Shown here one piece after another: positions 146 to 38,023 of a stretch of DNA of 38,023 nucleotides (the first letter of the stretch is position 1; every line of letters starts with the position of its first letter). The stretch spans positions 1 through 38,023 of IMG/VR virus record IMGVR_UViG_3300033984_000265, one strand, 5' to 3'. Under the pieces are notes generated by a model that worked only from the letters and a program-made list of their open reading frames with translations, was not told the origin of the DNA and ran no database searches. The position numbers were made by a program, and so were the translations under genes. The DNA is from a virus.

Positions 146-361
146 TTATAAATAACATTTAAATACATTTAACACTTTCTCGCTTACTGGCATCTTATAA
201 ATAATGAATTTATTATAAGTTACTCGATTGATACTTTCTAAAACTTTCTCACGTAATGGAGATTTTGACTTCAACCCTACTATTATTCTTTGCTGAAATT
301 CAAGTGCGACAAAGCTATTTCTAACCTCGTCACACTTTTGTTGATCTACTAATAATTTCAA
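146..361 (-). CDS. Conserved small protein, 71 aa
   Basis: Last gene of the recombination operon. I do not recognise a family. The protein is 71 residues, basic, with no signal peptide or membrane segment. It overlaps the SSB gene upstream by 4 bases (ATGA), implying translational coupling. The version at 34921-35136 differs at only two residues (L3I, Q8N) despite many silent DNA changes, so the protein is under strong purifying selection. Its constant position next to the SSB and annealing protein suggests a role in recombination or replication (inference). Confidence 0.7.
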   Translation of the reverse strand: MKLLVDQQKCDEVRNSFVALEFQQRIIVGLKSKSPLREKVLESINRVTYNKFIIYKMPVSEKVLNVFKCYL

Positions 362-696
362 AATGGTAAATCTTTTGGATCTTCTAAAATTGTATTCTCA
401 ACCTTAACATCATTTGTAATTTGTTCGATTTTCCAACAATCTAATGTTAGAAAATTGCTAACTATCTGAGTAGTTGGGTTTGTCCAGTCTCTACCATTAA
501 GGTTACAGTGAACATTAACCTCGTCATTTACTTTAAACTTATCTAATAAGCTACATTTGTCTTTAGTAACTTGCACTTTATAAGTGTTTGGATATTGATC
601 CGTTGTTACAACCTTAAATTCTCTTTTTGAAAATGATTCACTTACTACGATTGTGTCGTTTATTCCTACAATCTTACCTTTAATTTCAATGTTCAT
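358..696 (-). CDS. DUF3127-type single-stranded DNA-binding protein
   Basis: 112 residues, resembling the DUF3127 family of Bacteroidota, which is predicted to adopt an OB fold and act as a phage SSB. The body (residues 1-90) is beta-rich with the Y-P-N-T-Y-K-V-Q stretch typical of the family. The C-terminus is acidic and ends D-L-P-F, mimicking the D-D-I-P-F tail by which bacterial SSBs recruit partners. Within the recombination operon with an annealing protein, a role coating ssDNA during replication and recombination fits. The start overlaps the stop of the 59-aa gene (686-865). An allele lies at 35133-35471. Confidence 0.75.
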   Translation of the reverse strand: MNIEIKGKIVGINDTIVVSESFSKREFKVVTTDQYPNTYKVQVTKDKCSLLDKFKVNDEVNVHCNLNGRDWTNPTTQIVSNFLTLDCWKIEQITNDVKVENTILEDPKDLPF

Positions 697-865
697 ACCT
701 ATTTATATTTATTTGTTTGTTAATATACTCCTCTATTGTTCCTGCTGTATCGATATAAAATGATTCTTTACGTTCATTTATACGATAGTTTTTACTTTCC
801 TTAAAGCATCGGAATTGCAAAAATACTACAATTCCGATAACTCCTGGTAATAATACTTTAAACAT
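686..865 (-). CDS. Small membrane protein, 59 aa
   Basis: A 59-codon gene that fills the apparent gap between the SSB and the 166-aa gene. It starts at ATG 865-863, overlapping the upstream stop by 8 bases, and ends at TGA 688-686, overlapping the SSB start by 11. Residues 4-18 are hydrophobic, giving a likely N-terminal membrane anchor with a polar C-terminal part carrying T-G-T-I-E-E-Y-I-N-K. The copy at 35461-35640 has exactly the same length and position and about 44 of 59 identical residues, concentrated in the C-terminal half. That conservation shows it is a real gene. Function unknown. Confidence 0.75.
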   Translation of the reverse strand: MFKVLLPGVIGIVVFLQFRCFKESKNYRINERKESFYIDTAGTIEEYINKQININRYEH

Positions 866-1358
866 TTTTAACCATTATTGAAGACTTGCTAAATGTTATG
901 ATAGGTCTTTGCAATACCTCACCCGTTGACTCATCTAAGCTAGATACTTTTGAAAGTGCAACTTGTTTATATTTTTCCTCAATTTCTTTCAAGTTATCCT
1001 TAGCAATTTTCCATTCCTCAATATCTGAATAGTCAATCATTCTACGTCCTTCAACTTTGGTAATCATTTTAGATCCATATTTAAAACTTTTTTCCGTACG
1101 ATTTTCCGCTTCTTCAATTGCTAGTTCTTGAACATCTCTATTAACTTTATCCGCTATGTCTTTTACTTCCTTAGATATAGTATAAAGACTCAAAGCATCT
1201 AGTTCTCCATTTCTAACTGCATTTACCATCATTTCAAAATGGTCTTGTAGTGTTATAACCGTAGCTTCGGTAACCACACTTAAATGAAAAGGTTTTTCAG
1301 TTGGTGTGTTTTCCCAATATGCTTGTTGATCTCTGTCGATGTCGTTTAAATTTTCCAT
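858..1358 (-). CDS. Conserved recombination-operon protein, 166 aa
   Basis: 166 residues, mostly helical and charged; residues 70-145 look like a helical or coiled segment. No recognisable motif. The allele at 35633-36133 is very similar, including the C-terminal 30 residues. It lies between small proteins of the annealing operon and the SSB, so a role in DNA metabolism is plausible, but I cannot name one. The start follows an A-rich leader. Confidence 0.7.
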   Translation of the reverse strand: MENLNDIDRDQQAYWENTPTEKPFHLSVVTEATVITLQDHFEMMVNAVRNGELDALSLYTISKEVKDIADKVNRDVQELAIEEAENRTEKSFKYGSKMITKVEGRRMIDYSDIEEWKIAKDNLKEIEEKYKQVALSKVSSLDESTGEVLQRPIITFSKSSIMVKNV

Positions 1359-1585: not shown

Positions 1586-1822
1586 TTATTTAGTGTTAAA
1601 ATTCATTATTTCTTTTCTTACCTCTTGATAAAATTGTAAAACATTATTTGAGTAAGTATCTTCGCATTCATTTAAAATAAATAATATTTCATCAACAGCA
1701 AATAAAGCACAAACACAAGCCCCTATTATATTTTTTTCCCATACTCTTTTATCTGGATGAAATAATATAGCTTCTTGACTAAATTTATCAACTAATTGGT
1801 TTGCTTTTTCTTTTGGTGTCAT
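1586..1822 (-). CDS. Small protein of A-V-D-E-I-L family, 78 aa
   Basis: 78 residues with two cysteines in A-C-V-C-A just before A-V-D-E-I-L. It is nearly identical at DNA level to 36146-36379, in contrast to the unrelated DNA just upstream, so it marks a conserved patch in the mosaic. It begins 1 base after the annealing-protein stop (1824). Function unknown. Confidence 0.7.
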   Translation of the reverse strand: MTPKEKANQLVDKFSQEAILFHPDKRVWEKNIIGACVCALFAVDEILFILNECEDTYSNNVLQFYQEVRKEIMNFNTK

Positions 1823-1823
1823 C

Positions 1824-2336
1824 TTATTTGCTTTTTTCGATTAATAATTTTTCTATTTCGTTACTTACATTATACTTTGCTTTGATCTGTTCAATCGTTC
1901 CTTTGCCCTCTTTTAAAGCATCTACGCAACGGATAAAGTTAGTTGAACCAACTTGTAAAACTTCTTTAACTATTGGTTGTGGTTGGCTTGCTTTTTGTCC
2001 GTCGTCGTCGTCTGCTTGTAAACTCATTAAACTTTGCAAAGTATAACGTCTATAATAAGTAACTTGACTACCCAAAGCCTGTGCTGTTAAATTTGGGCTT
2101 AAGTCAATTGCACTTTCTACCATCTCAAATGTTTCAATGTCAATTATCTGTGTGAATACCTTACCGTCTTTAATAGGTTGTAACATAATTAAACCTTTCT
2201 CTAGTAGTATCGGTTCAACCGCTTCAATTAATGCGTTTAAATCGGCATAAGTATTTTTGAAATGCGGATTAGTTTTTGTTTTCTTAACTACTCCAATTTC
2301 TTTTTTAGCCTCGTGTATTTTTGCGTAAATTTTCAT
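1824..2336 (-). CDS. ERF-type single-strand annealing protein
   Basis: 170 residues with the ERF-superfamily signature: an N-terminal helical region with K-x-N-x-x-F-K-N-x-Y-A-D-L (22-33), then G-S-Q-V-T-Y-Y-R-R-Y-T-L-Q-S (89-102) and an acidic D-D-D-D-G (109-113). Proteins of this family anneal complementary ssDNA in phage recombination. After a short linker the last 50 residues (121-170) form a separate tail that recurs, 39 of 50 identical, on a different core in 36381-36974. It overlaps the 67-aa gene upstream by 4 bases. Its partner in the operon is the DUF3127 SSB. Confidence 0.8.
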   Translation of the reverse strand: MKIYAKIHEAKKEIGVVKKTKTNPHFKNTYADLNALIEAVEPILLEKGLIMLQPIKDGKVFTQIIDIETFEMVESAIDLSPNLTAQALGSQVTYYRRYTLQSLMSLQADDDDGQKASQPQPIVKEVLQVGSTNFIRCVDALKEGKGTIEQIKAKYNVSNEIEKLLIEKSK

Positions 2337-3312: not shown

Positions 3313-3497
3313 ATTTTGGTAAGTTTAGCAATTGCCGTTGCTGTAGCTCCGATCGTAACCATTACCCCACCGATAACCGCAGTAGCAGGTACTGAAATTA
3401 AACCTGTCCCAATTAAACCAACAATTATACCTAAGTGTATAACTTTCTTAAAAAAGTGAGGTGTCTCAGCATTCCATCGTTTATTTATCTCTCTCAT
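3309..3497 (-). CDS. Holin-like protein, 62 aa
   Basis: 62 residues with a charged N-terminus (1-17) and two hydrophobic segments (about 19-36 and 39-58) separated by a short turn with T-G. Size, topology and position directly before the endolysin fit a two-TM holin. The version at 37740-37928 is almost identical in protein although the endolysins differ. Named by context; no specific holin family recognised. Confidence 0.7.
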   Translation of the reverse strand: MREINKRWNAETPHFFKKVIHLGIIVGLIGTGLISVPATAVIGGVMVTIGATATAIAKLTKI

Positions 3498-3499
3498 TA

Positions 3500-4012
3500 T
3501 TATATTGTTTTTAATTTATTTTGATATGCATTACTTGCTTCTTCTTCATTATCAAAGTAACCTAAATGTACTTGTTTTAATCCAATTTTAATATATGCTC
3601 TCCATTTTTTATTAGCTTTAAACCAATATACTCCCGTAAAATTTGAAGTTTTATTTTTTTGGTCTTTACTTGCGTTTTCTCTTTGAGTTATAATTTGTAA
3701 ATTATCTATTCTATTATTTAATGAATTATTATCTATATGGTCTACAACTAATTTCATTCCATTAGGATTATGACCTAAAAAAGCCATAGCGACTAATTGG
3801 TGGGGCTTATAAGTCTTTCTAGTATTATTTTTGTTAAGACTTACAGTATAATAACCATTCTTATCTTTTGCTAATCTTAATAATTTTTCTTTTAAATAAA
3901 ATGGAAATTTACCTTTATTTAATTTTATCCTTTGCAAACTTTTAATATTACCTAAATTACTTACTTCATAAATTCCTTCATAACTAGGAACTGCTCTAAA
4001 TTCTTCTACCAT
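3500..4012 (-). CDS. HNH homing endonuclease, NUMOD4-HNH-AP2
   Basis: 170 residues in three parts: a NUMOD4-like DNA-recognition region (about 3-50, Y-E-G-I-Y-E-V-S-N-L-G), an HNH_3 core (68-115, H71 and D-H-I-D-N-N at 91-96) and an AP2-like DNA-binding domain (122-168, F-T-G-V-Y-W through A-Y). This is the domain order of free-standing phage HNH endonucleases, selfish genes that cut sites in related genomes. It sits between the membrane GAF-like protein and the holin with structured DNA upstream. Its 3' end recurs at the right window edge. Confidence 0.85.
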   Translation of the reverse strand: MVEEFRAVPSYEGIYEVSNLGNIKSLQRIKLNKGKFPFYLKEKLLRLAKDKNGYYTVSLNKNNTRKTYKPHQLVAMAFLGHNPNGMKLVVDHIDNNSLNNRIDNLQIITQRENASKDQKNKTSNFTGVYWFKANKKWRAYIKIGLKQVHLGYFDNEEEASNAYQNKLKTI

Positions 4013-4114: not shown

Positions 4115-4726
4115 TTATTCACTTAACATCCTACCAATTTCATCTGTTTGGTATTTAAATTCTTTATAATCAAAGTTTAAATGATTACTTTCTTTTACAT
4201 AATCAATGCCAATATACCCAACAAATTTATTATCTGTAAATATAGGAGCTATCATTAATGATTTTATACCTTGATTTTTTAGTGATATTTTTGTCGCATA
4301 TTCTTTTATTTCATCAACGTCTGAATAAACCATTCTACAAAGCATAACCTCTTGAAGAAATGTAGGGAAAAGACTTGTAGGTAAATTTTGTAGGTTTGAA
4401 TTTACAAAAGAAATACCTCTATTACACACCTCGTTGGTTAATGACTGATGGTTTTTATGTTTACCATCGTAGAACGAAACACCGTTGTGGAATCTAAAAA
4501 TATATGCCCTATCCGCTTTATATTTGAACATTAAATTATTTAACATTTGTTGAATTAGTACATTGTCCGTGACATCCTCTTTAATTGGGTCGTTTTCAAT
4601 TTTATTTTCAACTACCTTAGTTATTAAGGGTTGGTATGAATAAAGCACTAACCCCACGAATAGAAGGATTAGAGCTATATTTTTCATTTTGCGTAGTTCT
4701 GCTAGGATTAACTTAATATTATTCAT
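4115..4726 (-). CDS. Membrane-anchored GAF-like protein
   Basis: 203 residues. Residues 15-31 are a single hydrophobic membrane segment after a basic N-terminus; residues 55-200 resemble a GAF fold (A-D-R-A-Y-I-F-R-F-H-N-G near 72-83 and P-I-F-T-D-N-K-F-V-G-Y-I-G-I-D in the C-terminal half). GAF domains bind small ligands or sense signals, but I see no output domain such as a kinase or cyclase. Located between fibre genes and lysis genes; overlaps the 78-aa gene by one base. A role in lysis timing or superinfection exclusion would be speculation. Confidence 0.6.
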   Translation of the reverse strand: MNNIKLILAELRKMKNIALILLFVGLVLYSYQPLITKVVENKIENDPIKEDVTDNVLIQQMLNNLMFKYKADRAYIFRFHNGVSFYDGKHKNHQSLTNEVCNRGISFVNSNLQNLPTSLFPTFLQEVMLCRMVYSDVDEIKEYATKISLKNQGIKSLMIAPIFTDNKFVGYIGIDYVKESNHLNFDYKEFKYQTDEIGRMLSE

Positions 4727-4962
4727 TATGTAAAAGGATTTTCAATTATTTTAGGAAAATATTCCGACAAATTTAAAGTGTGAATAAATTGTAGATCTAA
4801 ATTTAATTCGTCAAGATACCATAGACCTAGACAATAGTAGTACTCAATTTCTGAAATTACCCAATTATCATTTAAATCTTGAATAGGATTGAAAAAACTA
4901 TCTTGTTCAAAAGTTTTTCCAATTAATATATCTTTCTGATCTGTTGTTAAAATTGCTATCAT
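4726..4962 (-). CDS. Small late protein, 78 aa
   Basis: 78 residues rich in aromatic and acidic residues (W-Y-L-D-E-L-N-L-D). No family recognised. It follows the fibre protein gene with a 4-base overlap and precedes the GAF-like gene. Could be a fibre chaperone by position, but this is not shown by sequence. Confidence 0.6.
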   Translation of the reverse strand: MIAILTTDQKDILIGKTFEQDSFFNPIQDLNDNWVISEIEYYYCLGLWYLDELNLDLQFIHTLNLSEYFPKIIENPFT

Positions 4963-25027: not shown

Positions 25028-25816
25028 TTAATCTAAATTTTTAAATGCTTTTAAAGGGTAAAAAACAAGTGAATTTCTATAACCATTTTCGTGTGTTGGT
25101 ATAATTGGAGTTACTCCATGAACATTTCTCCAAGCGGGATAAACTAACATTGAATTATCACAACTATCCATTGTAGCTCCATAATCTGGTACAGTAGTAT
25201 TTCCGCCTTTTGCGTTCATTTTTTTAGCTATAATAACATTTACACATCCTTCTAAATTACCAGCGTCTCTATGGAACGGAGCTGAAATATTATAATTAGA
25301 AATAGAACTTGTAAATAAATCTCCAAAACGATATTTTTCAGAAGTGTTTTTTTGTATTATTTCTTTTTGTTTTTCGTAAATATGTGGAGTTAATTCTTTT
25401 ATTATTTTCTCACTTTCTTTAGCTAATAAAAACATAGCTTTTATAAATGTTTGAGCGGATTTAACAGAGTGAACACTTGAAACAGTAGGGTAAGGTCTAC
25501 GCATATGTGGTTTTGGTGGTACACCTCCTAATATTGTGCTATATTGTAAAACTTCCTTTTCAGAATTACCATCACCAAAACCGCTTGACCTTTTCATTGT
25601 GCTTTTTGGTACATTCTTACTCCTTAGTTCCTTATCAGCTAAATCAGCTAATTTAGATGCTTTTTCTGAATGTTTTGAAATATCTTTAATATAGAAACCT
25701 ATAGCTTCATTATTAAAATAAAACATACTATCCTCAGTTATATTTGGTTCTATATCCCCACAAACATCGCCAATTTTAACATTGTGTTCTATTTTCACTA
25801 AATCAATTCTTTTCAT
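25028..25816 (-). CDS. TET/JBP-type 2-oxoglutarate dioxygenase
   Basis: 262 residues. The C-terminal double-stranded beta-helix shows the Fe(II)/2-oxoglutarate site: H182-R-D184 in A-P-F-H-R-D-A-G-N, distal H233 in N-V-H-G-V-T-P, and R247 in Y-R-N-S-L-V-F-Y for 2-oxoglutarate. The sequence around these and an upstream G-G-V-P-P-K-P segment (98-103) match phage TET/JBP dioxygenases, which oxidise 5-methylpyrimidines in DNA, typically 5mC to 5hmC. It overlaps the glycosyltransferase gene by 4 bases, so the pair probably makes glycosylated hydroxymethyl bases. No methyltransferase is visible to provide 5mC. Confidence 0.85.
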   Translation of the reverse strand: MKRIDLVKIEHNVKIGDVCGDIEPNITEDSMFYFNNEAIGFYIKDISKHSEKASKLADLADKELRSKNVPKSTMKRSSGFGDGNSEKEVLQYSTILGGVPPKPHMRRPYPTVSSVHSVKSAQTFIKAMFLLAKESEKIIKELTPHIYEKQKEIIQKNTSEKYRFGDLFTSSISNYNISAPFHRDAGNLEGCVNVIIAKKMNAKGGNTTVPDYGATMDSCDNSMLVYPAWRNVHGVTPIIPTHENGYRNSLVFYPLKAFKNLD

Positions 25817-26544
25817 TTTATTATTCTTTTATAATTTAAAGCAAGTGATTTTATATCTGTTTTCATATCTATTCTGTCACCTTTCTTTTTTAAAGTAACA
25901 AATGGATGCCATTCATAACACATTTTCCTTGCACTTTCTTCATCTTTTTTTGCCTTGTATTCACTTTGTAACCCTCCAACATTAGTTGATACATCAGGAC
26001 AGTTATAAAAATATTTATTAAATCTTAAAATTCCGTTACCGTTTTTAATAGTTTGTAGGGCGAAATCCCTATCCTCTTTTAAATTAAATTCAGGTCTGTA
26101 ATTCCATTTAATTTTAGATATATTCATTAACACACAAACTTCTGCAAATTTTTTATTAATTGAATAACTTGTTTTTTCAGTCCAAGCTAATTGCCTATAA
26201 TTTATGCCTACTAATTCAAATGGTAAATCTTTAACTTTATTAAAAATATCTAACCATATACTAGCATCTTTTTTTATATTGCCATTGTCATATATTCCAA
26301 AATGGTCTACATCATCATCACAAATTATAACCCAATCATAATTATTTTTACGTGCATAATTTAGCATAAAATTACGAACATATCCTATTCCTTTATCATT
26401 TTCTAAAATAGATATTTTATTAGGAACTTGATACTTTTCTATTTCTTGTGGTTCAATAAAATGTCTTACCTCAATTCCAACAAGTTGGAATAATTTATAA
26501 GTTTTTGTGTTTAACCTACCTTTTGTTGGTATAAAACAAATCAT
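25813..26544 (-). CDS. TET-associated-type glycosyltransferase
   Basis: 243 residues with a GT-A-like fold: I-P-T-K-G-R at 5-10 for nucleotide binding, a G-Y-V-R-N-F-M-L segment (54-61), metal-binding D-D-D at 76-78 in I-C-D-D-D-V-D, and E-D-R-D (157-160) as likely catalytic region. This is the pattern of TET-associated glycosyltransferases described from comparative genomics of phage DNA modification. Expected to add a sugar to the hydroxymethyl base made by the next gene's product. It overlaps both neighbours by 4 bases. Confidence 0.8.
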   Translation of the reverse strand: MICFIPTKGRLNTKTYKLFQLVGIEVRHFIEPQEIEKYQVPNKISILENDKGIGYVRNFMLNYARKNNYDWVIICDDDVDHFGIYDNGNIKKDASIWLDIFNKVKDLPFELVGINYRQLAWTEKTSYSINKKFAEVCVLMNISKIKWNYRPEFNLKEDRDFALQTIKNGNGILRFNKYFYNCPDVSTNVGGLQSEYKAKKDEESARKMCYEWHPFVTLKKKGDRIDMKTDIKSLALNYKRIIK

Positions 26545-27107
26545 AATAAATCCTTTTCATATTTTAATTTCTCAACTAATAAAGCACCTACATAAACTTT
26601 TTTATCTCTAAAAAATTTAACTAATTGTTGAGCATCTTCATAATGTTCAGCTTCGAACTCAATTTGTATAGCTTTTTTAACTCCGTTTGTCATATCCTCT
26701 AATTGGTCGGAAATATCATCATCGTCTAATATTGAATAATCTACATCGGTATCAAAAGTAGGCACGTCTAACCCCCATTCTTCTAACATATCAACATCCC
26801 ATTCATTTAATAAATCCCAATCCCATTCACCGCCTGAAACATTATCTTTTATTAGAAACTCCTTTTGTTGCTCTTCAGTTAAATCGGTTACAATAACTGG
26901 TATTTCTTTTAACCCGGCTTCTTTACAAGCCTTGTATCTCATATTACCACCTAGAATAATCATATCCTGATTAACTACAATAGGTCTAATATCTAACATT
27001 TCAGGAAAGTCTTTAATAGACTGAACTAGTTTTGTAAACTTATCATCCTTAATTATTCTAGGGTTATTTGGGTTGAGTTTTATCTCGTTTATTTTTAAAT
27101 ATTTCAT
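26541..27107 (-). CDS. ParB/sulfiredoxin-like nuclease-domain protein
   Basis: 188 residues. Residues 1-110 form a ParB N-terminal domain with N-P-R (15-17), the G-G-N-M-R motif (53-57) and the helix after it. The C-terminal part is acidic (D-D-D-D-I near 130) and unlike the DNA-binding domain of partition ParB, and no parA is present. Phage proteins of this kind often sit next to base-modification genes, as here with the glycosyltransferase and dioxygenase; a DNA-recognition or nicking role is inferred. Confidence 0.75.
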   Translation of the reverse strand: MKYLKINEIKLNPNNPRIIKDDKFTKLVQSIKDFPEMLDIRPIVVNQDMIILGGNMRYKACKEAGLKEIPVIVTDLTEEQQKEFLIKDNVSGGEWDWDLLNEWDVDMLEEWGLDVPTFDTDVDYSILDDDDISDQLEDMTNGVKKAIQIEFEAEHYEDAQQLVKFFRDKKVYVGALLVEKLKYEKDLL

Positions 27108-28430: not shown

Positions 28431-28757
28431 TTATTTTTTTTCTACAATATCAAATTTTATAAATTCTTTTCCTTTTTCTACATTAAATTTTTGAGCTTGT
28501 AATTCATATATGTCACGATCATTAAAATCATATTTAATTGTTAAACAATCCTGAAATACTTTAATACAATTATCTAAGTCTTGAAGTTTAGAAGATAAAC
28601 CAAATTCTAGTATCAATTTATAAGGTGCTCGACCAATAAATTTAATCGGTAACTGGCTCAAAACCTCTTTAACATAGTCTTTATGTACTTGATTTTTAAA
28701 TCGTTTCCCCTGATAACAACTATTAACCGATAATGCTTTTATATTTATTTTTTCCAT
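28431..28757 (-). CDS. rusA: RusA-family Holliday junction resolvase
   Basis: 108 residues, close to the usual RusA size. Catalytic acidic residues lie in D60-L-D62-N and D70, with F-N-D80-R downstream, matching the D-x-D-N-x-x-K...D...N-D-R pattern. It resolves branched DNA arising during replication and recombination before packaging. Its start overlaps the end of the HNH gene by 35 bases. Confidence 0.85.
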   Translation of the reverse strand: MEKINIKALSVNSCYQGKRFKNQVHKDYVKEVLSQLPIKFIGRAPYKLILEFGLSSKLQDLDNCIKVFQDCLTIKYDFNDRDIYELQAQKFNVEKGKEFIKFDIVEKK

Positions 28758-29097
28758 TTTTTCTATCTTTTATATTATTGTAAGCCATTGACACTATTTG
28801 TAAGTTATCAATATTATTATTTAAAGGATTATTATCAATATGATCTATAACCGTTTTTCTATCTGTTTTAATATAATTTAAAAAACATAGTGCCATTAAT
28901 GAATGTATTCTAAATGTTTTTCTTTTACCATTTTTATATAAACTTATTTGAGGATAATTCCTTCTTAAAACTCCACTCATATGATAATTTATTATTCGTT
29001 CATTAAATTCACCATTTTTATAAAATCCTTTAATTATACCGTAAGAACTTATCTCATAAAGTCCTTCATAATCTTTTATTTTTACCCAAGTTTCCAT
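28723..29097 (-). CDS. HNH endonuclease, NUMOD4-HNH without AP2
   Basis: 124 residues: NUMOD4-like start (Y-E-G-L-Y-E-I-S-S-Y-G, 10-20) and HNH_3 core (H65, D-H-I-D-N-N 85-90). Compared with the 170-residue HNH at 3500-4012, it stops after the HNH core and lacks the AP2 domain. It reads straight into the resolvase gene, so insertion here may have replaced the original upstream sequence. May be functional or a shortened form. Confidence 0.8.
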   Translation of the reverse strand: METWVKIKDYEGLYEISSYGIIKGFYKNGEFNERIINYHMSGVLRRNYPQISLYKNGKRKTFRIHSLMALCFLNYIKTDRKTVIDHIDNNPLNNNIDNLQIVSMAYNNIKDRKNGKNKYKSIIG

Positions 29098-34576: not shown

Positions 34577-34792
34577 TTAAATTTTAGTTATTAAATATCC
34601 TGCAGTATACAACCAACCTAATGGTGTATTACCTCTTTGACTGTAAATTGTGTTTTCGTCTGCGGAAACAAGGTAGCAATTTCCTCTTATTTCGCTAATA
34701 AAGGCATTTTCACAAAAATATTTTGTTTGCCAATTTCTAGTGACATTTGTTTCAACGTTTACTCGATCTCCAATTTTCAATTCTGCATTCAT
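34577..34792 (-). CDS. First early gene, 71 aa
   Basis: 71 residues with an SH3/KOW-like beginning (L-K-I-G-D-R-V-N-V-E-T) and beta-rich body. No certain family. It follows the promoter at 34826-34855. Its first 17 bases recur at the left window edge, indicating that the same gene would continue there in a circular genome. Confidence 0.65.
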   Translation of the reverse strand: MNAELKIGDRVNVETNVTRNWQTKYFCENAFISEIRGNCYLVSADENTIYSQRGNTPLGWLYTAGYLITKI

Positions 34793-34825
34793 AATTTCTA
34801 GTTATTAGTAATTGTTATCTGAGAG

Positions 34826-34855
34826 CAAATATATACATTATTCTTTAATATACAA
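34826..34855 (-). promoter_or_regulatory. Early-operon promoter
   Basis: On the minus strand TTG (34855-34853), 19 bases, TATATTTG (34833-34826), full consensus. Drives the 71-aa gene and the following early genes. Identical to 51-80. Confidence 0.8.
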
Positions 34856-34882
34856 GCGTTTATTTAAAATAAATGTAAAATA

Positions 34883-34913
34883 AAAATAACCAAACTATTA
34901 ATTAGGTTATTTT
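34883..34913 (-). terminator. Intrinsic terminator after recombination operon, right copy
   Basis: Same 9-bp AAAATAACC/GGTTATTTT hairpin as at 108-138, differing by one loop base. Confidence 0.6.
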
Positions 34914-34920
34914 CAATTAG

Positions 34921-35136
34921 TTATAAATAACATTTAAATACATTTAACACTTTCTCGCTTACTGGCATCTTATAAATAATGAATTTATTATAAGTTACTC
35001 GATTAATACTTTCCAATACTTTCTCCCTTAATGGTGACTTTGACTTCAACCCTACTATTATTCTCTGTTGAAATTCAAGTGCGACAAAGCTATTTCTAAC
35101 CTCGTCACATTTGTTTTGATCTACTAAAATTTTCAA
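34921..35136 (-). CDS. Conserved small protein, 71 aa (right copy)
   Basis: Allele of 146-361 with two amino-acid differences and the same 4-base overlap with the SSB gene. No family recognised; basic, soluble. Followed by a terminator. Confidence 0.7.
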   Translation of the reverse strand: MKILVDQNKCDEVRNSFVALEFQQRIIVGLKSKSPLREKVLESINRVTYNKFIIYKMPVSEKVLNVFKCYL

Positions 35137-35471
35137 AATGGTAAATCTTTACTATCTTCTAAAATAGTGTTTTCAACTTTAACCTCGTTTGTAATTGGTT
35201 CAATTCTCCACGCATCTAATGATACAAAATTGCTTACTATTTGAGTAGTTGGGTTTGTCCAATCTTTACCGTTTAGATTACAACTTACATTAACCTCGTC
35301 GTTAACTTTGAATTTGTCTAATAAACTACATTTATCTTTCGTTACTTGAACTTTAAATGTGTTAGGGTACGTTTCATCCGTTAATACTTTAAACTCTCTT
35401 TTAGAGAATGATTCACTTACTACGATTGTGTCGTTTATTCCTACAATTCGACCTTTTAATTCAATGTTCAT
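35133..35471 (-). CDS. DUF3127-type SSB (right copy)
   Basis: 112 residues, same length as the left copy, with differences scattered at roughly one residue in seven, mostly conservative. The acidic end with D-L-P-F is preserved. Predicted OB-fold ssDNA-binding protein working with the annealing protein encoded upstream. Confidence 0.75.
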   Translation of the reverse strand: MNIELKGRIVGINDTIVVSESFSKREFKVLTDETYPNTFKVQVTKDKCSLLDKFKVNDEVNVSCNLNGKDWTNPTTQIVSNFVSLDAWRIEPITNEVKVENTILEDSKDLPF

Positions 35472-35640
35472 ACCTGTTTGTTTTTATTTGTTTATTTATA
35501 TATTCCTCAATTGTTCCTGTTGTATCAATGTAAAATGATTCATTACGTTCATTTACATTGTATGTTTTACTTTCTTTTTGTGATCGGAATTGCAAAACTA
35601 GTACAATTCCGATACAAGGCAATATTAATACCTTAAACAT
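35461..35640 (-). CDS. Small membrane protein, 59 aa (right copy)
   Basis: 59 codons from ATG 35640 to TGA 35461. Hydrophobic N-terminus (4-18) and conserved polar C-terminal half with S-F-Y-I-D-T and G-T-I-E-E-Y-I-N-K. Same frame, length and overlaps as at 686-865. Confidence 0.75.
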   Translation of the reverse strand: MFKVLILPCIGIVLVLQFRSQKESKTYNVNERNESFYIDTTGTIEEYINKQIKTNRYEH

Positions 35641-36133
35641 TTTTAACCATTATAGATGACTTGCTAAATGTTATTATTGGTCTTTGTAATACTTCACCCG
35701 TTGACTCATCTAAGCTACTAACTTTCGATAATGCCACTTGTTTATATTTTTCTTCAATTTCTTTTAAATTATCCTTTGCAATTTGCCACTCCTCAATGTC
35801 TGAGAAATCAATTAGTCTACGTCCTTCAACTTTGGTAATCATTTTACTACCATATTTAAAACTTTTTTCAGTACGGTTTTCCGCCTCTTCAATTGCTAGT
35901 TCCTGTACTTCCCTATTAACTTTATCCGCAATATCTTTTACTTCCTTAGAGATAGTGTATAGGCTTAAAGCGTCTAGTTCTCCATTTCTTACAGCATTTA
36001 CCATCATTTCAAAATGGTCTTGTAAAGTAATTACAGTTGCTTCGGTTACTACGCTTAAATGAAAGGGATTTTCCGTTGGTGTATTTTCCCAGTATGTTTG
36101 TTCTTGTTGGTCGATGTCGTTTAAAATTTCCAT
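35633..36133 (-). CDS. Conserved recombination-operon protein, 166 aa (right copy)
   Basis: Allele of 858-1358, same length, few substitutions concentrated near the N-terminus (residues 3-22). Helical, charged, unknown function. Here it follows the 78-aa homologue directly because the 74-aa paralogue is absent. Confidence 0.7.
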   Translation of the reverse strand: MEILNDIDQQEQTYWENTPTENPFHLSVVTEATVITLQDHFEMMVNAVRNGELDALSLYTISKEVKDIADKVNREVQELAIEEAENRTEKSFKYGSKMITKVEGRRLIDFSDIEEWQIAKDNLKEIEEKYKQVALSKVSSLDESTGEVLQRPIITFSKSSIMVKNV

Positions 36134-36145
36134 TATAATTTATTT

Positions 36146-36379
36146 TTAATTGTTAAAATTTATTATTTCTTTTCTTACCTCTTGATAAAATTGCAAAACA
36201 TTATTTGAGTAAGTATCTTCGCATTCATTTAAAATAAATAATATTTCATCAACAGCAAATAAAGCACAAACACAAGCCCCTATTATATTTTTTTCCCATA
36301 CTCTTTTATCTGGATGAAATAACATAGTTTCTTGACTAAATTTATCAACTAATTGGTTTGCTTTTTCTTTTGGTGTCAT
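36146..36379 (-). CDS. Small protein of A-V-D-E-I-L family (right copy)
   Basis: 77 residues, almost identical at DNA level to 1586-1822. This high-identity patch between diverged flanks suggests recent exchange or a preferred crossover point. Only one member of this family is present in the right copy. Confidence 0.7.
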   Translation of the reverse strand: MTPKEKANQLVDKFSQETMLFHPDKRVWEKNIIGACVCALFAVDEILFILNECEDTYSNNVLQFYQEVRKEIINFNN

Positions 36380-36380
36380 C

Positions 36381-36974
36381 TTATTTTGATTTTTCGATTA
36401 ATAATTTTTCTACTTCACTACTTACATTGTACTTTGCTTTGATTTGTTCTAGTGTGCCTTTACCCTCTTGCAATGCCGTTAAACATCGTAAAAAGTTACC
36501 ACCACCAAATTGTAAAACTTCTTTAATAATAGGTGGTGCAAATTCTTTTTTCATTTCTTCAATGTATCTAACATCGTCAAATTTACCCATGAAAATATCA
36601 GCATTAAAACCTAACTTTGATATTGCTTTAGTAAGTGCATCTGTTTCTATTTTCTTTGCAAAATTGTCATCTACCATTGTATTTGCTCTATCCATAAATA
36701 ATTTACAGGAATTTATGATCTCAAACTCCCCGTTCGGAAAAAAGAAAGTACCTTTAAATACTACTAGATTACATTTTTCAACTAAATCATAGCTTAGCGA
36801 TATATCTTTAAATCCCCACTTTTGACCATAAACTCCAAACTGTTCAGTAACTTGCATAATTTGGTATTGCGGTGCTATAGAGGTTATTTCACGACCTCCT
36901 AGCTTTGCGTTTTTTGTGTACTTTGGGTTTGTTTTTTCAACTTTATTCCAAAGAATTAAATTTTCATTACTCAT
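36381..36974 (-). CDS. Rad52-like annealing protein candidate with shared tail
   Basis: 197 residues. The core (1-145) differs from the ERF protein at the same place in the left copy. It has G-V-Y-G-Q-K-W-G-F-K-D (47-57), a beta strand G-T-F-F-F-P-N-G-E-F, and T-D-A-L-T-K-A-I-S-K-L-G-F-N-A-D-I-F (111-128), the pattern seen in Rad52/Sak-type phage annealing proteins. The last 50 residues (148-197) are 39/50 identical to the tail of the ERF protein. Function assigned by motif and by positional equivalence. Confidence 0.7.
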   Translation of the reverse strand: MSNENLILWNKVEKTNPKYTKNAKLGGREITSIAPQYQIMQVTEQFGVYGQKWGFKDISLSYDLVEKCNLVVFKGTFFFPNGEFEIINSCKLFMDRANTMVDDNFAKKIETDALTKAISKLGFNADIFMGKFDDVRYIEEMKKEFAPPIIKEVLQFGGGNFLRCLTALQEGKGTLEQIKAKYNVSSEVEKLLIEKSK

Positions 36975-37338: not shown

Positions 37339-37743
37339 TTATGGAAGAAAAAACCTATTTCCTGATTTTGGTGGGTTTATTTGAAAGTGACACCAAGTCT
37401 TAGTCGCTGAGAAATCCTCCATCCACAAGCCAATCTCCTCCATTAGCTTAATATTATCTTTAACCCACGCTTTTAATTTACCATCTGCATCCGAAAAATC
37501 AACTGCTCTACCGCTTAAATGGTTACTTTTCATAGGTACTTTTGGAGGGTAAATTCCTTTTCTTGCGTATATCTCTAAATGATGTTTAGTTGTACGAAGT
37601 CCTGATGTTACTATCATAGGTTTTCCATACGCTGAACGAACGATATTAATACGTTTATGAAGCTCTTTTAAGTTGTCTTGTACTTTTTTATCTAAACTAT
37701 CAAAACTTGCTTGATTGCTTAATAATTCATCTATAGTAATCAT
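37339..37743 (-). CDS. Endolysin, M15-type peptidase (version B)
   Basis: 134 residues. Zinc-site residues H75 and D82 in S-N-H-L-S-G-R-A-V-D-F (73-83) and H119 in W-C-H-F-Q (117-121); S-G-L-R-T (47-51) is the typical strand before the site. Outside these motifs it is not alignable by eye with the enzyme at 2905-3312, so it belongs to a different M15 subgroup while sharing the same holin and terminator. Overlaps the holin gene by 4 bases. Confidence 0.85.
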   Translation of the reverse strand: MITIDELLSNQASFDSLDKKVQDNLKELHKRINIVRSAYGKPMIVTSGLRTTKHHLEIYARKGIYPPKVPMKSNHLSGRAVDFSDADGKLKAWVKDNIKLMEEIGLWMEDFSATKTWCHFQINPPKSGNRFFLP

Positions 37744-37928
37744 ATCTTAGTTAGTTTAGCAATTGCAGTAGCAGTAGCTCCAATCGTTACCATTACTCCG
37801 CCAATCATAGCAGTAGCTGGTAAAGTTATTAAACCACCACCAATTAACCCTACAATTATACCTAAGTGAATAACTTTCTTGAAGAAATGTGGCGTCTCAG
37901 CGTTCCATCGTTTATTTAGTTCTCTCAT
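37740..37928 (-). CDS. Holin-like protein (right copy)
   Basis: 62 residues, nearly identical to 3309-3497 (changes such as I4L, T31G, S35T). Two hydrophobic segments after a charged start. Works with whichever M15 endolysin is present. Confidence 0.7.
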   Translation of the reverse strand: MRELNKRWNAETPHFFKKVIHLGIIVGLIGGGLITLPATAMIGGVMVTIGATATAIAKLTKI

Positions 37929-37930
37929 TA

Positions 37931-38023
37931 TTATATTGTTTTTAATTTATTTTGATATGCATTACTTGCTTCTTCTTCATTATCAAAGTAACCTAAATGT
38001 ACTTGTTTTAATCCAATTTTAAT
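37931..38023 (-). CDS. 3' end of HNH-AP2 endonuclease gene, cut by window edge
   Basis: 31 codons identical to the end of 3500-4012, covering most of the AP2-like domain (I-G-L-K-Q-V-H-L-G-Y-F-D). Incomplete only because the window ends. Confidence 0.75.
   Translation of the reverse strand: MKIGLKQVHLGYFDNEEEASNAYQNKLKTI

Follow-up and report, generated by a model that had tools for sequence, protein, structure and literature searches.

The annealing-protein gene of the phages studied here is built from a core and a short C-terminal tail, and the core is switched between separate families over a near-constant tail. The stretch of DNA that we analysed (the window) comprises 38,023 bases and is a linear IMG/VR record in its entirety. 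It contains two alleles, almost certainly of one gene slot, which encode an ERF protein (protein A, 1824-2336) and a Rad52-like candidate (protein B, 36381-36974). The last 50 residues of the two proteins align without gaps and, as the first-pass annotation had stated, are identical at 39 of 50 positions. A BLASTP search with one tail finds the other with an E value of about 1e-24, far beyond chance, and AlphaFold models place three short helices in both tails, with a pLDDT of about 90 for tail A. We regard modular exchange of a tail that is maintained by selection as very nearly certain. The features concerned are as follows.

36381-36974, minus strand: allele B annealing protein, 197 aa, putative Rad52-like core plus tail 1 (phrog_7838, E 9e-35; AlphaFold model)
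36534-36974, minus strand: core B, residues 1-147, putative Rad52-like annealing domain
36384-36533, minus strand: tail 1 of allele B, residues 148-197, predicted short helices 159-169, 175-181 and 186-196
1824-2336, minus strand: allele A annealing protein, 170 aa, ERF core plus tail 1 (PF04404; phrog_2324)
1977-2336, minus strand: core A, residues 1-120, ERF annealing domain
1827-1976, minus strand: tail 1 of allele A, residues 121-170, predicted short helices 132-143, 148-154 and 159-169
358-696, minus strand: DUF3127 SSB of allele A, ends KDLPF (PF11325, E 4e-20)
35133-35471, minus strand: DUF3127 SSB of allele B, ends KDLPF (PF11325, E 4e-20)
858-1358, minus strand: 166-aa protein of allele A, no family match, conserved companion of tail 1
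35633-36133, minus strand: 166-aa protein of allele B
1586-1822, minus strand: small gene adjoining the tail in allele A, 78 aa (phrog_21441); other genes take its place in many relatives
36146-36379, minus strand: small gene adjoining the tail in allele B, 77 aa
2905-3312, minus strand: M15 endolysin of allele A (PF08291)
37339-37743, minus strand: M15 endolysin of allele B, a different M15 protein (PF08291)
1-127, no strand: terminal 127 bp, identical to 34776-34902, an assembly overlap signature
34776-34902, no strand: second copy of the terminal 127 bp
37921-38023, no strand: last 103 bp, identical to 3490-3592

Protein A matches the Pfam ERF family (PF04404) with an E value of 1e-18 and 68 bits against a cut-off of 25, and it matches the ERF protein Gp77 in sequence with an E value of 5e-17. 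In structural comparisons, the model of protein A aligned with Gp77 over 108 residues (Z 11.2, rmsd 3.7), the next matches being Mgm101, RAD52 and Sak with Z values of 5.7-6.3; Foldseek alone gave no useful match for this model, and Gp77 and RAD52 were recovered only by VIA realignment. These matches agree with published work in which ERF, RecT/Redβ and Rad52 were unified (PMC9870868). Protein B, in turn, has no Pfam match and belongs to the family phrog_7838. Its core is modelled as a β-hairpin, a helix, a three-stranded sheet and a further helix, which is the element order of the Rad52 topology (PMC9870868). The best structural matches of this model were RAD52 of humans (Z 8.0), Mgm101 of yeast (7.7) and Sak of phage 80α (6.5). 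The first 14 VIA rows were all RAD52, Mgm101 or Sak (Z 6.4-8.0) and the next row fell to 5.3, but the pLDDT of the model is only 71, so that we assign core B to the Rad52-superfamily fold, as a putative single-strand annealing protein (SSAP), with moderate confidence. The models therefore agree with the earlier description of this gene as Rad52-like and, judged by them, both cores have the Rad52-superfamily annealing fold. PHROGs labels phrog_7838 an ‘exonuclease’. This label is doubtful because the core B model has the Rad52 element order and annealing proteins as its best matches; no nuclease occurred among the fold matches listed, of which the leading ones were annealing proteins, and the name is probably wrong. 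The label also appears with phrog_2489, and several phage records, F116 and PMG1 among them, use the name.

The proteins and the tails were each used as queries against viral contigs, and the contigs fetched were arranged in a matrix of cores against tails. As these contigs are those that share short exact peptides with the queries, the matrix samples the core-tail pairings and does not list them exhaustively. The ERF core A is joined to tail 1 in 15 proteins and to tails 2 and 3 in 22 each, whilst core B has tail 1 in three proteins, tail 2 in six and other tails in 37. Tail 1 (KEVLQ...LIEKSK) occurs on core A, on core B (in the window and in contigs L003 and L014) and on a divergent ERF core, core C (L041/L098 and L099). 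Core C is also found with tail 3 (PICS...ELDVFDKL; L100/L161). Tail 2 (IDNARFEKAL...ELQxKALLLL) is present on core B and in the four ERF groups A, D, E and F. Group F also bears tail 3, as do cores A and C, and tail 3 ends one AAA_24 protein as well. The proposal made from the window, that the tail is portable and the core exchanged, is thus borne out by three tail families distributed over several cores, and by a protein with another fold that ends in tail 3. Moreover, the search of phage proteins with the tail alone, which had been suggested as a check, placed tail 1 on three cores and so refutes the view that it never occurs on other cores.

The AAA_24 protein that ends in tail 3 (L194/L199) matches PF13479 with an E value of 1e-15 and 58.5 bits against a cut-off of 27. 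PF13479 is the Pfam family used for Sak4 (PMC8093625), and by this Pfam match the carrier is a Sak4-family protein. This family has the RecA-type P-loop fold, that is, another fold than the Rad52-type cores. The tail-3 match in L194 scores 33.3 bits (E 2e-6 per million sequences), the best of 2000 shuffles of the C-terminus reaching 6.7 bits. Searches of Pfam, PHROGs and PDB sequences gave no convincing match for the tail family, and tail 2 had none in the phage collection. Tail 1 was absent from bacterial genomes in a GTDB scan and from 295 genomes belonging to the same class as the F. caseinilyticum genome, both searched with a short profile that had no positive control there. An unrelated protein of Parabacteroides phage PF672P1 (2608-3141 of its contig; phrog_21613), which is a non-SSAP and adjoins a YqaJ nuclease, has an end 40% identical to tail 1 (E 3e-3). 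The likeness is weak; if real, it would suggest a more general recombination-complex adaptor.

How the window pair arose can be read in more than one way. One record contains both copies, as it would if a single phage genome had two paralogous operons with different annealing proteins. However, the record begins with a sequence that is repeated at 34776-34902, with the identity ending after exactly 127 bases, and 127 is the usual largest k in metagenome assemblies of this kind; the last 103 bp of the record likewise recur at 3490-3592. In 11 related contigs the SSB gene could be located, and each has one copy of it; the single operon of the relatives is flanked on one side by sequence matching the window at 2.7-7 kb and on the other by sequence matching it at 32-35 kb. 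Because of the terminal repeats, the single copies and the flanks drawn from both sides of the window, we rejected two real operons in one genome, a reading that we regard as highly improbable. Almost certainly, a mixed phage population supplied both ‘operons’, as two alleles of a single slot. The window itself is almost certainly an over-extended population contig, most likely one in which assembly went a full turn round a genome, circular or circularly permuted, before entering the allele of a second strain. Thus, the earlier statement that the two genes occupy the same slot holds, whereas its phrase ‘both operons’ should be corrected to two alleles. The second question is whether the cores belong to a single family that underwent gradual divergence in place whilst the tail was conserved, in favour of which it can be said that Rad52-superfamily structures match both models. 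This we consider scarcely credible, since cores A and B have no sequence similarity even between family profiles, the profile-profile comparison aligning the tails only. Among tail-1 phages, core A proteins are at least 81% identical to that of window A and core B proteins at least 93% identical to that of window B, with no intermediates, and each core family is also found with unrelated tails. The dissimilarity of the cores noted in the first-pass annotation is therefore confirmed, and of the possibility it raised against its own reading, a common fold with gradual divergence, the models support the common fold but the lack of intermediates contradicts the divergence.

On the window pair alone, a retained module cannot be told from one carried over passively, because homology continues downstream past the tail, where the two alleles are 97% identical. 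The shared tail might accordingly be a functionless passenger of the downstream DNA, or a mere DNA anchor for recombination. In 14 other pairs of tail-1 loci, however, homology is confined to the 150 nt of the tail, which are 75-90% identical, and the 300 bases on either side cannot be aligned. The median dN/dS of the tail is 0.12 despite change at about half of the synonymous sites. The tail is under purifying selection, since the protein has been retained whilst the synonymous sites are heavily changed. In addition, three different tails have been shuffled over many cores. Carry-over with the downstream flank, although possible for the window pair taken by itself, was rejected on account of these islands of homology together with the selection on them, and we judge a functionless tail to be very unlikely. 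Modular exchange of a selected tail is also consistent with the comparison of the three genes that combine core B with tail 1. Between window B and L003, synonymous sites had changed in a fraction of 0.65 in the tail and 0.31 in the core (p 0.002); the values were 0.54 and 0.25 between L003 and L014 (p 0.006), and 0.46 and 0.32 between window B and L014 (p 0.19). Tails are more synonymously changed than cores, and therefore related cores sit on older, diverse tails. In L014, the SSAP is followed by a small gene (4594-4818) with the end QLLIEKSK, the same residues as those that close the SSAP tail; this looks like a scar left where DNA was inserted at the tail's 3′ end.

The two alleles differ in further respects. 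They are unlike in the upstream 67-aa gene and in the M15 endolysin, and an extra small gene (1360-1584) is present in allele A only. The M15-type endolysins differ behind a near-identical holin-like gene, which makes the lysis gene another site of exchange, at a distance of a few hundred bases from the SSAP. The window encodes two HNH endonucleases (3500-4012 and 28723-29097), the former at the edge of the allelic region, where shared sequence resumes. Elsewhere, at 25028-27107, a TET/JBP-type oxygenase (PF12851), a TET-associated glycosyltransferase (PF20691) and a ParB-like protein are encoded in a row, in what looks from its domains like a 5-methylcytosine hypermodification cassette; the PHROGs name ‘queuine tRNA-ribosyltransferase’ for the oxygenase conflicts with Pfam.

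From these results we propose that the gene encodes a two-part SSAP. An N-terminal core from one of several Rad52-superfamily families would anneal DNA, and would be joined through a proline-containing linker to a three-helix C-terminal module of 45-50 residues. Phage recombination would swap cores and tails at this linker, independently of each other. The tail would bring the annealing core to ssDNA by docking, most likely via the C-terminal tip of the phage DUF3127 SSB, the host SSB or both (each of which ends in D-L-P-F), by analogy with the C-terminal domain (CTD) of Redβ, which binds E. coli SSB. Taken as a whole, this explanation (a core with an exchangeable tail, alleles of one slot and an SSB-docking tail) is the best that we can offer, and we lean towards it with some confidence. 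That the tail is a protein-docking module of some kind appears from the combined analysis to be quite probable.

The identity of the docking partner is less clear. The DUF3127 SSB lies beside 23 of the 24 tail-1 loci that have room downstream, and its D-L-P-F end, described beforehand as conserved, is present as KDLPF in both copies in the window. Across the tail-1 loci the tip is DLPF or, in L041, L042, L044, L046 and L049, EEPPF. Both tips fit the SSB-tip pattern, so that an SSB-docking tail is the most likely single reading, although we would give the SSB tip as partner slightly less than an even chance. Precedent comes from Sak4 of HK620, which requires the NDYPPF tip of its SSB (PMC5928155), and from recombineering, where recognition of the SSB C-terminus by the SSAP is held to set host range and to account for the poor portability of SSAPs between hosts (PMC10711431). 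In a Flavobacterium genome with a core B relative, the SSB ends NDLPF. On the other hand, the tail may dock to another fixed partner, such as the 166-aa product, whose gene lies between those of the SSAP and the SSB, an undetected nuclease or a host protein, with the SSB co-travelling only. The 166-aa gene accompanies tail 1 just as regularly as the SSB does (23 of 24 loci) and is present at seven of 35 tail-2 and 11 of 32 tail-3 loci, some of its loci having no nearby DUF3127 SSB; the Redβ CTD also binds an exonuclease (PMC8303780). In addition, the SSB tip varies without a matching change in the tail: we looked by eye for covariation between the two and saw none, DLPF and EEPPF accompanying nearly identical tails, and the tails of window A and L049 (EEPPF) are 96% identical in DNA. 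Tips of D-L-P-F or similar sequence also lie beside SSAPs with quite different tails. Against such a partner, there is no YqaJ exonuclease in the window or in the tail-1 relatives tested. The 166-aa gene is missing near many tail-2 and tail-3 SSAPs, and its product has no family match in Pfam or PHROGs that would hint at an interaction. Overall, we regard a partner other than the SSB as possible, with a chance well below even. In tail-2 and tail-3 records, which may be fragments, the DUF3127 SSB is often absent and no canonical SSB was found. The 166-aa protein (858-1358 and 35633-36133) may occupy the position that Gam/DUF1351-type proteins have next to ERF in phages of Firmicutes.

The phages carrying these SSAPs probably infect Bacteroidota, for which, to our knowledge, few recombineering tools are known. 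We tentatively suggest that Bacteroidota phages might keep a limited number of interchangeable C-terminal docking cassettes for annealing proteins of unrelated fold (ERF, Rad52-like and Sak4/RecA-type), and that the cassette, rather than the core, might set which SSB, and hence which host or replication machine, is addressed. SSAPs drive phage mosaicism and serve as recombineering tools. Cores that recur with different tails, and tails that recur on different cores, amount to a natural set of domain swaps with which to ask whether core or tail sets partner and host specificity.

Several known systems resemble the one described here in part. The ERF family (PF04404), with the Gp77 structure (9y6u), includes core A by both Pfam and structure, the tail lying outside the Pfam ERF match. 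Core B, which has no Pfam match, models with the same fold as Rad52, Mgm101 and phage Sak. The Nonlabens phages P12024L and P12024S (Inhavirus) share a flavobacterial host, the order ERF - (nuclease) - DUF3127 SSB and a nearby endolysin; unlike the window, they have a YqaJ nuclease between ERF and SSB. Their ERF tail has the pattern ALKxGxxTIEQLKxxY in common with the tail here, but is otherwise only loosely similar. As a functional precedent for the tail, the nearest is the CTD of λ Redβ, a bundle of three helices that recombination requires and that binds both SSB and λ exonuclease (PMC8303780). Like tail 1, as modelled, it is a small three-helix C-terminal module behind a Rad52-superfamily core; it is longer (residues 193-261) than the tails, we found no sequence similarity between the two, and no YqaJ exonuclease was found in the window or the tail-1 relatives tested. 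The closest parallel is found in Firmicutes, where SSAP families reported to include Sak4, RecT and Erf/Sak3/Rad52 share a C-terminal HTH-like domain, for which shuffling between phages has been proposed (PMC8093625). As with the window tails, one C-terminus is found across different annealing families. That domain is described as remotely homologous to the Redβ CTD and ParD (PMC8093625), whereas the window tails have no sequence link to the Redβ CTD. In contrast to the Firmicutes domain, the tails described here are 45-50 residues long, fall into at least three families and are exchanged at the level of near-identity in related phages. The sharing of a tail among annealing proteins is therefore already known from Firmicutes (PMC8093625); what is new here is that the tail families are short, that they are exchanged combinatorially in phages probably of Bacteroidota, that near-identity alleles coexist in one population and that one case extends, by its Pfam assignment, to a Sak4-family protein.
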